DNA of 64,000 nt, from assembly GCA_033220425.1 (NCBI GenBank), contig CM065648.1, forward strand, positions 2,976,001 through 3,040,000, written 5' to 3'. Under the pieces are notes generated by a model. The model saw only the letters and a list, made by a program, of their open reading frames with translations. It was not told the DNA's origin and did no database searches. Source of the stretch: Lepraria neglecta (taxonomy: Eukaryota > Ascomycota > Lecanoromycetes > Lecanorales > Stereocaulaceae). A program made the position numbers and the translations under genes. Below, piece by piece: positions 20,892 through 27,114 of the stretch (the first letter of the stretch is position 1; each line of letters begins with the position of its first letter).

Positions 20892-23519
20892 CTATGTAGG
20901 GCGCCGATCAAATTGTTCGCTTACGAGCTTCGCAATCTCTAGGCTCAAGGGATGGGGAAAAGACCGTCTTGCATCAATCAAGGCCTCTAGGACCAAAGAT
21001 GTTGCGCAGATTAAGTCTCCCTCTTCTGTTGATGGGATAGCGAGATCGCAAGTGGCCGACAATGTGTCAGTGCTCTTCACCGACTTTCCTTTGTCTCTTC
21101 TCTAGCACCTTCTGCCTCATCGACGCCGCTTCATCCAGCCGGCCTTGATCGCGAAGAGTGACCGCTAAATTGTTCATAGCTGTAATAGTACCGGGGTGCT
21201 CTTCGCCAAGGATGCGCCGTCGTTTCTCCAGTACCTCGTAATTCATCGATACCGCTTCATTCAGCCGGTCTTGATTGCCGAGACTAATAGCTAGGTTACT
21301 CATAGCGCTGATAGTATCGGGATGCTCTTCACCAAGAATACAATGTCTTTTCTCTAGCACCTGTTGCCGCATCGATGCCGCCTCATCTAGCCGGCCTTGA
21401 TCGCTGAGAGTGGCCGCTAGATTATTCATAGCGGAGATAGTATTAGAATGTTTTTCACCAAGGACGTGCCGTCTCTTCTCCAGCACCTCCTGCTGCATTA
21501 ATACCGCCTTATCCAGCTGACCTTGACGCCTGAAAATGTTCGCTAGATTATTCATAGCGCTGATAGTATCGAGATGCTCTTCGTTAAGGATACGTCGAAT
21601 TTTCTCTAATACCTCCTGCTGTATCGATAGCGCCTTATCCAGCTGGCCTTGATCGCTGAGACTGTTCGCTAGATTACTTATAGCTCTAATAGTATCGGGA
21701 TGCTCTTCGCCAAGGATGCGCCGTCTCTTCTCCAGCACCTGTTGGCTCATGGACGCCGTTTCATCTAGCCGGCCTTTCTCGCTGAGACTGTTCGCTAGAT
21801 TATTCATGGCTGTGAGGGTGTCGGGGTGCTCTTCGCCAAGCACGCGTTGACTGTGCTTCAACAGGAAAATCCGAATCAGAAACACATCCGACCAGCGGCC
21901 TACTGTATTAAGAAAGTCGGCAAAGCTGGGGAGAAGCTTAAGTACAGATCGATCTTCGCTATCTGTCTCGGCATAGTTTTGCGATACTGCCATAAAATTA
22001 ACCATCACATGCGGCACCAGGCGTATGCGGTGCATGTGATGTGGCTCACATCCCGATACTATTGTCTGTAACAATCGGAGCGCGCCACCGCTGAACGAAC
22101 GTTGCTTCTCCGGAGAGAGCCGGTCATAGCTCCACGCATGTACCAACTTATGCATAGAGTAGCTGCCTTGATCTTCCTTCCATTGGATAAGCGAGAATGC
22201 CTGGAGACAACGAAAAGCCTCTTCGACAGTATATATACTTGGTATTACCACATCTTCTCCGCTCTCCTGGTAGCCCAGATTCTGATCAAAAAACCCAGGT
22301 AGAATATCATCATTGTTGAGGAAGGCCAGCAAGCCCATAAGTTTCGTAGCTCCGGGGCATTGCCGAGTGATCGCGTCAAACGATGTTTCCCAAGTTGTAA
22401 GTACACTCTCCCCGTAATGATGAACGATCCGATTGGGCTTTTGACGCAGTAATTCTGCCCGTCGGGACCGATACTCCGGTAGATAACTCGTGATCTTCAT
22501 AGAGAGCCGAGGGGTCGCTGATACATATGAGCCTGCAATGCTGATGGCCAAGGCAAGATATCCTAACTCCCGAACAATCGAACCTACTTCTACTTCTGTC
22601 TCCTGTGTTTGATCTTTGATTTTTGAGCTCTGAAAAAATAGGTTGACCGCTTCGATCTCTTCCATCTCCCCAACTTCGACCGCATCGAGTAGTGTCATTT
22701 TTTTGATCCATTCGGCCCGAGTGGTAATCACGATCTGCACCCCCGGCGAATCTGGGAGGTAACACCGTAAGTCGTAATACGAAGGGTCCTCCTCGTCCTC
22801 TGTCAGATCTGCGCTGTCAAAGACCAGCAGCCAGCGTCCATGCTGCCGAGAGAACCAGCGCTTCACGTCCGAAACGGCATCCTCAGCTTTTATACTCTCC
22901 CCCTCTGACACTGCTCCTCTATTAAAAAGAAGTCGATATATTTGTAGAAAGTCTCGTTCGACTGATTCCTTCCGGCCTGCTTCGATCCAGAACGTGGCGG
23001 TGTAGTCCCCTCGATGTTTTCGCAAGTAGTCCAGTATGAGCTGCGACTTCCCCGCCCCGCCTAAGCCCCAGACCACAAGGATCGTAGTCTCCTCCACCTT
23101 CTCCGTCAAAGCTGGATGTAGCTGCCTCCGGACCTGTTCATAGGGTGTAGGTCGCTGTATGTAGTTTGTTACGGGCCTGAGTGAGGACTTCGAATAGTGA
23201 CCCTCGTAGGTGTCTGGTGTGGTTTGGGCCGCCGCCGTCGGATCTGAACCTAGCGTCAGCTTTCATTTGATACCGGCTAGTCGGGATACTTGACTGATAG
23301 TGAGTCCGTGGAAGTTGCCTTGAAAGATCTGACTCCCTTGGAAGGCCTCGATTGTCGGATCTATCGTATCATGTCAGCTAACTGCATTTTTGATAGCACA
23401 CTATGTAGCGAGCAGCTTCACTTACTGGCACAGTATTGTCTATCTCCGATCTGTACCTGACCCTGCCCATCAACGTAGAACTTCTCCGCTGCATTTCCAC
23501 CGGACGAAGCTGCGGCCAT
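20892..23519 (-). CDS. NB-ARC/TPR NLR with N-terminal HET-s-like amyloid motif
   Basis: Predicted receptor of a HET-S/NWD2-type cell-death pair. Exon 1 (23519-23426, ATG start) encodes 31 residues containing AAEKFYVDGQGQVQIGDRQY, which fits the HET-s-related amyloid motif. Intron 1 (23425-23361, 65 nt) has GTAAGT, a GCTGAC branch site and an ATAG acceptor. Exon 2 starts at 23360, and its junction near 23290-23245 is unresolved. The main exon carries the NB-ARC P-loop GLGGAGKSQ (about 23040-23067), Walker B-like WLLVFDSAD and the MHK motif. Six TPR units of 42 residues (GEEHPDT...) follow. A possible 55-nt intron (21080-21026, GTGAAG donor, CAACAG acceptor) joins in phase to a tail ending at 20892 (ATSLVLEALIDARR, EIAKLVSEQFD). 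Without that intron the frame stops at 21067. It is divergent from the HeLo gene. Confidence 0.85.
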
Positions 23520-24096
23520 CAGAGAGGCTAGTTCGGCTGATAGTACATATCAGCCCACCGGAAGTAGTCATTCGAAAATCAGTCGCTTCCGATGTGTGCG
23601 TTGGATCGTGTTGCCGCTTGAGCAGGCACCTGGTGGTCGCTGGCTTGGTAGGGCTGCAGGAGTTGTCTTGGCGCCTTATTTGTCAACGGAATATTGTCCG
23701 TCGAACAAGCTCCGTTAATGAACAGAACTATTGGTTATTGTGGATAATGTGTTGCAGTGGACACCAGAGAGTTCTTAGCCTTTGGATTTTAAGAAAGCGG
23801 TCCAACGGCGCTAATAATCAACTTCTTAATCGACCACTACCCCGCTCCTTCCTCTCTCTAGCGTCTCTAAACTTGGTAGCTGGGGTCATCTTAAGTCGTA
23901 CCGGAGTAAACTATTAATGGGCGCCATTGTCTTCTAACGAGTGTCATACCGGCACTGTATACCTGATTCTCGTTCCCAGCCATTTGCCGGCTTCAGCAAA
24001 GCACTGCCAACCTCGCAGAACACCCCAGCTCCAGCGCAGAGTACTGCATCCGTTCAGAGTTTCAAAGACCTGTCTAGTCTATCCAGCCATATCACG
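23520..24096. promoter_or_regulatory. divergent promoter between NLR and HeLo gene
   Basis: These 577 bp separate the two start codons and must hold both promoters, so the pair could be co-expressed. I see no convincing TATA box. A frame on the plus strand continues upstream from the HeLo ATG to 23941, but it starts at GTG and has no family similarity, so I treat it as non-coding. Confidence 0.5.
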
Positions 24097-25663: not shown

Positions 25664-27114
25664 ATGTCGACAGCTCCGTTCCGAGGCCATACGGCCGAGA
25701 GGTTCCACGTTGATGGCCAGGGTAGGTACAGATCGGAGATATACACAATTATGGCAGTAAGTGAAACTCATCGCTACATGGTGTGCTGTTAAACATGTAG
25801 CTGCCTGAGATAACATGATAGATTCAACACCCCCGGCCTCTCGATTCCACAACAAGCACTTCGAGCTGCCCCGCAACGCCAGCTCTGTCTTCACCGGGAC
25901 GCGAAGAAATCGGCAAACGAGTAAGAACCCACTGCCTACCGTCCAACACCCCAAACTCGCAGCAACAACAGAAGAGATTTGTTACTTACGGGCTGGGTGG
26001 ATCAGGCAAGACGCAGGTGTGCCTCAAATTTGCGGAAGATCATCGTGCAGAGTAGGTGTACTATTATTATACTCCCGCCCTGCACTGACGGTGCTTCAGA
26101 TTTTGGGGCATATTTTGGATTGATGCGAGCAGTACAGAAAGCCTCGAGCAAGGCTTTTCACAGGTTGCCAAGGTCTGCGGTCTAGAACCCAACGTGGATA
26201 TTGTTAAACGATGGTTATCGAATATATCCGAGTCGTGGGTCCTGATCTTAGATAACGCTGATGATTCTCGCCTGGGTATCTCTCCATAGTTTCCGGTAGG
26301 GAATCGGGGGATCGTCTTGATCACGACTCGGAACCCGGATTGCCAGATCCACGCCACCGTCGGTTCATACGAGCTCGGTACAATGGTATCTGATGGCGCT
26401 GTTACTTTGATCCTCAAAACGACCGGAGTCCACGATCAATCACACAAGTCGATACGAGAAAGTACAAAGCCGGTAGTGGCGACCCTAGAATGCCTGGCGC
26501 TAGCGATTTTTCAGGCCGGGGCGGTGATCCGACAAGGTCGTTGTAAGACGGAGGAATACTGTACTATCTACTACCAACATCGATAAGAACTTTTAAGTCG
26601 AAAAGCTGTGCAATGTGGAGAGGATTATCGATACACCGTATACAGGACTTGGGAGATCTTACTGAAAATGATTGAGGAGATGTCGAGCGAGGCCGGACGA
26701 GACGCTATGGAATTACTCCAGATCTTCAGCTTCCTCCACCACGATGGGATTTCCGAAGAAATATTCCGCCGAGCATGGAAAATTGTACGGAGCGACACGC
26801 CTTCCGAATGGACACTCTTACATCTATCGGATATACTCCTTCGTCAATCAAGTCAGGAATGGGATGTCTACCCTATTCGAGCAGCGTTGTCGATTCTGCT
26901 ATCATTTTCCCTTATCAATCGTAATAAGGATCATTTGATTTCCACCCACCCGCTCGTCCACATATGGACTTGAGATCGGTTAAGTCCCTCGGACGAGGAA
27001 ACGATCTGGACACGGACAACTTCAACGGTGGCCCTTTCGATAAGCTGGACTTTTGAGACCGTAGACTACCGATTCCGAAAATCTCTCGTGCCGCATATCG
27101 ATAAAAACGTGTAA
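25664..27114 (+). pseudogene. NB-ARC NLR pseudogene with amyloid-motif first exon
   Basis: The ATG at 25664 opens an exon homologous to exon 1 of the divergent NLR: 93 nt instead of 94, with one base missing inside the motif (FHVDGQG, then VQIGD in another frame). A 65-nt intron follows (25757-25821), the same length and similar in sequence to that NLR's intron 1. The downstream NB-ARC core differs from its neighbour: YGLGGSGKTQ, a 48-nt intron (26052-26099), WVLILDNADD, LITTRNPDC, TVYRTWEI, LLQIFSFL and HPLVHIW. A further indel lies near 25895. In-frame stops are TAG (26287), TAA (26584), TGA (26971) and TAA (about 27112). No TPR or other sensor repeats remain. It sits 720 bp downstream of the HeLo gene. 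Confidence 0.85.

Follow-up and report, generated by a model that had tools for sequence, protein, structure and literature searches.

In Podospora anserina, the NOD-like receptor (NLR) FNT1 has an NB-ARC/TPR architecture with an amyloid motif (R0) at its N-terminus and is encoded next to hellf (PMC7885112). PNT1 is likewise an NB-ARC/TPR protein but with a PP motif, and the N-terminal regions of both proteins reportedly form prions and set off the respective effectors (PMC7885112). A further protein, Pa_3_9910, is listed as prion-forming domain/NB-ARC/TPR (PMC4986451). HET-s-related amyloid motifs (HRAMs) are 21-residue repeats with hydrophobic positions 5, 8, 10, 16 and 18, Gly at 19, a loop of 6-18 residues and Arg or Lys favoured at 15; 98 of 155 published HRAM genes of the HeLo type, a set that includes Cladonia grayi, adjoin an NLR with a single N-terminal HRAM (PMC4518210). 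We analyzed a HeLo/NLR cluster in a 64,000-nucleotide window (C3:2976001-3040000) of the 42-Mb, 11-contig Lepraria neglecta genome, where C-numbers denote contigs and L-numbers excised loci. We take L. neglecta, which is lecanoralean, and the other genera named below (Brigantiaea, Letrouitia) to be lichen-forming. Judged from its sequence, the locus is probably a HET-S/NWD2-type amyloid-signalling cell-death module whose sensor is an NB-ARC/TPR receptor.

The first-pass annotation had ranked this cluster as the best candidate for an undescribed system. That claim falls, because FNT1, an HRAM-bearing NB-ARC/TPR sensor, is already known to be paired with HELLF, whose effector domain is HeLo-like (PMC7885112); FNT1 rules out a novel kind of system (PMC7885112, PMC4986451), and the locus is a further case of a known design. 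HELLF/FNT1 (HRAM5) resembles it in having an NB-ARC/TPR sensor with an N-terminal R0 and, next to it, an effector that carries two HRAM repeats (PMC7885112, PMC7889193), and the available text of its accounts describes no chimeric sensor or layout with NLRs on both sides. It differs in that its effector is HeLo-like, whereas the one here is a true HeLo protein, and in its motif class, HRAM5 against HRAM3-like. PNT1/HELLP also uses an NB-ARC/TPR sensor that signals through an N-terminal amyloid motif, but that motif is PP and occurs as a single copy in its effector. HET-S/NWD2 (HRAM1) shares a true HeLo effector, two C-terminal repeats and a neighbouring NLR with a single N-terminal motif copy; the loop between the HET-S repeats R1 and R2 is longer than the loop here. 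NWD2, however, is a NACHT/WD40 protein, and HRAM1 has Asn at position 3 (PMC4518210). The HRAM3 subfamily shares with the effector repeats His at position 3, Gly at 19, the five hydrophobic positions and a loop length that accommodates the 7 residues found here (PMC4518210); the comparison is by residue pattern, and position 15 of R2 is Asp here instead of Arg or Lys. The points specific to the L. neglecta locus are a putative receptor swap and sensor-rich wiring.

The effector open reading frame matches PF14479 with an E-value of 5.3e-53 and the solved HET-s HeLo domain (PDB 2wvo) with 1.1e-41. The two tandem motif copies that the first-pass annotation saw at its C-terminus are there, and are listed as R1 and R2 in Table 1. 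Searching with this protein found 173 homologues at E 0.001; the 120 listed plus the query (P0001) form a set of 121 proteins, 91 of which have R1 and R2 at a fixed 28-residue spacing. The other 30 were incomplete, divergent or missed by the pattern and were excluded from motif statistics. Across the 91 pairs the repeats agree with published HRAMs in the hydrophobic residues at 5, 8, 10, 16 and 18, in the 7-residue loop and in G19, although the pattern that picked the pairs itself demands this Gly. Position 3 is His in 96% of R1 and 99% of R2 motifs, and position 15 is Lys in 80% of R1 and Asp in 67% of R2.

Charges also covary between the repeats. Among 529 R1 by R2 position pairs, the in-register pairs 13/13 and 5/5 had the two most negative z-scores against shuffles (-7.7 each), followed by the off-register pair 10/13 (-6.2); kinship of the sequences inflates these scores and affects off-register control pairs equally. 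With the numbering used for these pairs G is 17, and positions 13 and 5 correspond to published positions 15 and 7. Pair 13/13 is positive-negative in 66 of the 91 proteins and reversed in 7. Covariation of the same kind was part of the published argument for an HRAM beta-solenoid, in which position 7 is complementary and position 15, generally positive, is not (PMC4518210). Together, the residue pattern and the covariation support a predicted beta-solenoid fold of R1 and R2.

The HET-S/HET-s pair has an allorecognition role in Podospora, and an H33P change silences HET-S (PMC10197012). The L. neglecta locus could likewise serve mainly in allorecognition, with the NLR next door as a relic. We see only a slender chance of this: aligning proteins to the HET-s HeLo domain places Gln, not Pro, at the switch site of the query, Pro occurs there in none of 56 aligned proteins (the query and 55 of the 120 listed), and the pairing with an NLR is found again at several loci and in other species.

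The divergent NLR, NLR-A, starts at an ATG at 23519 on the minus strand, with 577 bp between its ATG and that of the HeLo gene, as first described. The motif proposed for its extreme N-terminus, FYVDGQGQVQIGDR, lies in exon 1, and its residue spacing fits the published HRAM pattern (PMC4518210), though with Ala at position 5. Exon 3 encodes NB-ARC, DUF7779 and six TPR_10 matches. NACHT scores below its cut-off (E 0.06) and WD40 is not among the families listed, so the architecture is not that of an NWD2 orthologue. The order R0, NB-ARC, TPR is that of FNT1, the two being compared by architecture alone. An in-frame TGA was considered as a nonsense mutation and rejected, as the deposited model OEA41_002029 places it inside an intron of 51 nt. 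The earlier description of the locus as a complete NB-ARC/TPR pair stands in part: by sequence there is an HRAM effector/sensor pair with an NB-ARC/TPR sensor, but the TPR array of NLR-A stops at a frame break.

To score R0, we built a matrix from the 91 R2 motifs of HeLo proteins (the query being one of them), with no R0 in training, and ran it and its R1 counterpart over 219,858 stop-free 23-mers, obtained by six-frame translation of the window and of 20 loci (L021-L040). True motifs are enriched among these peptides because the presence of HeLo or NLR genes was the criterion for selecting the loci. With the R2 matrix the R0 of NLR-A ranked 9 of 219,858 (14.6 bits), the best non-HRAM-like peptide scored 10.6 bits, and each of the top 11 was an HRAM-like site, as classed by its position in a HeLo or NLR gene. 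The combined R1+R2 matrix ranked it 8. Searching the whole genome with the R0 peptide of the C6 NLR gave seven matches at E <=0.0016, its own site counted, with NLR-A at 0.0016. All seven lie directly upstream of NLR bodies: six are 82-357 nt before a scored NLR match, and the seventh, NLR-B, has a P-loop 263 nt further on. Profile comparison (hhalign) of seven R0s, five from this genome and two from other species, with 19 hand-picked R1R2 sequences gave a probability of 93.6. Exon 1 of NLR-A is also homologous at the DNA level to three further R0 exons (C6, C5 and NLR-B). That the shared motif is a coincidence therefore seems vanishingly improbable given the genome search, the R2 matrix, hhalign and the exon homology, even though the motif is short, the R1 matrix alone ranks NLR-A only 12 (8.9 bits, with at least one non-HRAM peptide above it at 10.4) and hidden Markov models (HMMs) of HeLo motifs do not list it at E 10.

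The same arrangement recurs outside L. neglecta. In Brigantiaea leucoxantha, the R0-NLR P0125 (Q9190_004209) and the HeLo protein P0010 (Q9190_004210) have consecutive locus tags and contigs of the same size (23,257). In Letrouitia subvulpina, the R0-NLR P0126 (Q9167_000241) and the HeLo protein P0031 (Q9167_000240) do so as well (184,374). Adjacency in both was read from tags and contig sizes, not contig sequence. R0 was present in two of the four matches of the R0-NLR protein search, namely P0125 and P0126; their NB-ARC scores are slightly under the cut-off of 23.5 (21.8 and 22.0), and DUF7779 and TPR are above theirs. No account of such a module in lichens was noticed among the papers listed by a literature search or in the consulted text of PMC10197012.

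Several observations weigh against a HET-S/NWD2-type module with NLR-A as its sensor. On the effector side, R2 mostly has Asp at position 15, where published HRAMs favour Arg or Lys; the R1R2 profile searched against PDB had no HET-s prion-domain structure among its matches at E 10; and the HeLo protein has no match to PF11558, the HET-s prion domain. Similarity to that domain does not define the HRAM superfamily, because PF11558 matches merely 38 of 155 HRAM proteins (PMC4518210). On the sensor side, NLR-A was missing at E 10 from the results of HMMs built solely from HeLo motifs, with R2 HMM E-values of 1.3e-4, 0.22 and 14 for the R0 exons of the C6 NLR (L022), the C5 NLR and NLR-B. Position 3, His in R1, R2 and six of seven R0 exons as in HRAM3, is Asn in NLR-A. 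Its R0 is the most divergent scored: on the R2 matrix it reaches 14.6 bits, whereas R0s of a second HRAM class reach 18.8 and 18.3. Because these score higher, motif similarity alone cannot assign NLR-A to the neighbouring effector. The tie is made by adjacency and exon-1 DNA homology. In addition, the NLR-A frame closes after the last TPR repeat yet TPR-like sequence continues, by eye, in another frame, which may mean a truncated array. The PF00931 list of the genome (30 rows) includes NLR-A but none of the other six R0-NLRs.

Some of these points would suit a different amyloid class, RHIM- or PP-like, with NLR-A signalling to another effector. The GQVQIGD stretch of its R0 resembles RHIM/PP cores, presumably through the VQIG tetrad, and the Asn at position 3 and the lower matrix score would fit. 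We consider this improbable, since VHIGD or VQIGD is found in the homologous R0 exons, which match VHLGN of the HeLo R2 (the L022 R0 with the E-value given above). Moreover, the PP core NxGxQxGxN (PMC9815663) is absent by eye from the NLR-A R0, and the effector has two repeats whereas PP effectors have one.

We return to NLR-A as the sensor of the adjacent HeLo effector, and to its origin. From 23608 to 24961 the window is 80% identical to L022 on C6 over 1365 aligned positions (blastn). From upstream of its ATG to 23367, the 5' region of NLR-A aligns with the C6 locus at 75-80% identity, and as far as 23353 it aligns with NLR-B at 77%; from 23344 onward it instead matches P0124-type NLRs (67-70%). 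C6 and the window thus have the HeLo gene, the intergenic region and the R0 exon in common, but their divergent NLRs have different bodies. An NB-ARC tree of 18 rows, in which NLR-A and L026 are long branches, puts NLR-A on the body-A side, split from six body-B rows at 100/100 support; a label count on this tree (R0 type changing once, 11 rows unlabelled) gave no support to a receptor swap. Residues 6-329 of P0002 are 57-58% identical to body A and 33-35% to R0-bearing body-B NLRs. NLR-A seems to be a chimera in which a 5' flank and R0 exon are fused to an NB-ARC body of a distantly related type. The simplest view is that body A is the replacement, because C6, C5 and both other species carry body B. 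N-terminal swaps among fungal NLRs have already been described (PMC4986451). Exon 2 of NLR-A (23360-23295, minus strand) retains FQGSQIFQGNFHGLTI, a remnant of the QEGSxFGDTNAFHSQIFQGNFHGLTI segment of P0124-type NLRs (C4, C6, C7). Ten matches to this segment were found in the genome, eight at NLR loci and two unplaced, and no effector with the segment was recognised. Separately, P0127 of Gyalolechia gomerana is a body-B NLR with a patatin domain at its N-terminus in place of R0.

The second, broken NLR of the first-pass annotation is also real: NLR-B has an R0 in its first exon, frameshifted, and is 54-59% identical to P0125/P0126 (tblastn) and 82% to the C6 NLR (DNA). The order NLR(-) HeLo(+) NLR(+), with an R0 or R0 remnant on either side, occurs on C3 and C8 (L021) and, inverted, on C6 (L022). 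Genome-wide, seven R0 exons or remnants were found, and the scored NLR matches are stop-free in three (NLR-A, C4 and C5), though stops in the others may partly be introns. NLR-B was recognised as an NLR by its similarity to P0125/P0126 and the other five by 33-35% identity to NLR-A over NB-ARC and TPR. Effector C-termini of the window class have two matches in the genome, the open HeLo gene of the window and the C6 HeLo gene, which has a TAG in the motif stretch and five stops in the HeLo part. The C5 HeLo gene is a remnant in which no motifs were found. HeLo matches of the genome search were absent within 400 kb of the R0 exons on C4, on C2 and at C6:3383415. Both the effector and the R0 counts are lower bounds; an effector of another type that carries one diverged motif could have escaped the search. 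The broken C6 HeLo gene (L022 4000-4900) has G+C 0.42, TpA/ApT 1.10 and (CpA+TpG)/(ApC+GpT) 0.89, whereas the intact gene of the window has 0.49, 0.55 and 1.44. The C6 values are such as repeat-induced point mutation would leave.

These counts, seven R0 exons to one intact effector, suggest that many sensors may serve one executioner. As a tentative model, which we hold with reserve, the R0 exon and its 5' flank could be a portable plug, refitted to receptor bodies by recombination near the first intron. Many receptors, of two deeply separate body classes, would feed one executioner, the second HRAM class (three R0 exons, one HeLo effector) would be a parallel channel, and the window would be a swap caught in place beside the effector. 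A different possibility is that NLR-A is a decaying or non-signalling chimera and that R0 receptors elsewhere in the genome (C4, C5) act in trans on the HeLo protein. The R0 of NLR-A does not begin with RGH as the other R0s do, and its TPR array is broken, while the scored matches of the C4 and C5 R0-NLRs are stop-free and lie in open frames that are 791 and 1333 aa long. We think this unlikely but deserving of weight: the R0 core positions, the splice sites and the NB-ARC/TPR frame before the break are intact, and a gene model is deposited.

If instead NLR-A does signal to its neighbour, a ligand would bind the TPR array, and the NB-ARC domain would oligomerise, as its family suggests. The clustered N-terminal R0 motifs could then fold as a beta-solenoid that, given the common motif and the adjacency, would template R1-R2 at the C-terminus of the HeLo protein. 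By analogy with HET-S, HeLo would refold, its N-terminal helix would enter the membrane, and the cell would die. The observations behind this are the motifs, the domains, the gene pairing, the same pairing in two other species and the R0 module on a different NLR body.

Table 1. Features of the HeLo/NLR cluster, in window coordinates
Feature	Position	Strand	Basis
NLR-A gene, OEA41_002029 model (P0123), 778 aa; exon 1 23519-23426, exon 2 23360-23295, exon 3 23243-21067	21067-23519	-	Open reading frame and deposited splicing
TPR array of NLR-A, 126-nt unit, six TPR_10 matches, ends at frame break	21070-21846	-	PF13374 E 4.6e-71; direct repeats 126 nt apart
NB-ARC domain of NLR-A	22507-23127	-	PF00931 E 7e-9, 35.7 bits against cut-off 23.5
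Putative chimera junction in NLR-A, around the intron-1/exon-2 boundary (23361/23360)	23344-23367	-	blastn, NB-ARC tree
R0 motif of NLR-A, SGGNAAEKFYVDGQGQVQIGDRQ	23436-23504	-	R2-matrix rank, genome R0 search, hhalign
Divergent intergenic region, common to HeLo and NLR-A	23520-24096		Homologous to C6 locus
Single-exon HeLo effector gene (281 aa), with HeLo domain at ~24109-24717	24097-24942	+	PF14479, PDB 2wvo
HRAM repeat R1, SRGHNVTDWKAGGSSKMWAGDDN	24778-24846	+	Pattern/matrix search
HRAM repeat R2, SRGHNFARFTVSDHADVHLGNVN	24862-24930	+	Pattern/matrix search; charges covary in register with those of R1
NLR-B, broken; R0 exon from 25664 and body-B nucleotide-binding region; frameshift within R0, downstream stops	25664-27102	+	tblastn/blastn

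Several other loci were noted. L021 (C8:757500-767400) is a second HeLo/NB-ARC-TPR cluster of a different HRAM class (GHTYHHIQISGNARVLLGNSV), with NLR copies on either side. Two near-alike HeLo and NB-ARC/TPR pairs at C7:21987-24247 and C9:18972-21226 (L024, L025) have many stops in their NLR parts, and the motif HMM and matrix searches turned up no HRAM in them. The R0 exons at C2:1707472-1707558 and C6:3383415-3383501 (L046, L047) have identical peptides and nearly identical DNA, apparently from a recent duplication of an orphan R0-NLR. Elsewhere in the window, 556-4803 on the plus strand encodes a single-protein NLR with PigL_N/HeLo-like (PF17111), NACHT/NPHP3_N and 11 Ank_2 stretches in one frame, in which a stop at 1864-1866 separates the NACHT and ANK parts. 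None of 4227 Rfam families reached its gathering score in a scan of 19000-32000.

The locus extends predicted HRAM signalling with NB-ARC/TPR sensors to a HeLo family that occurs in lichen-forming fungi. It also offers a natural experiment in which plug and effector are constant and the receptor body is exchanged. Many-to-one wiring, if true, would contrast with Podospora, whose pathways are inferred to run in parallel and independently (PMC7889193), and would give a system in which to test how amyloid specificity survives sensor turnover.

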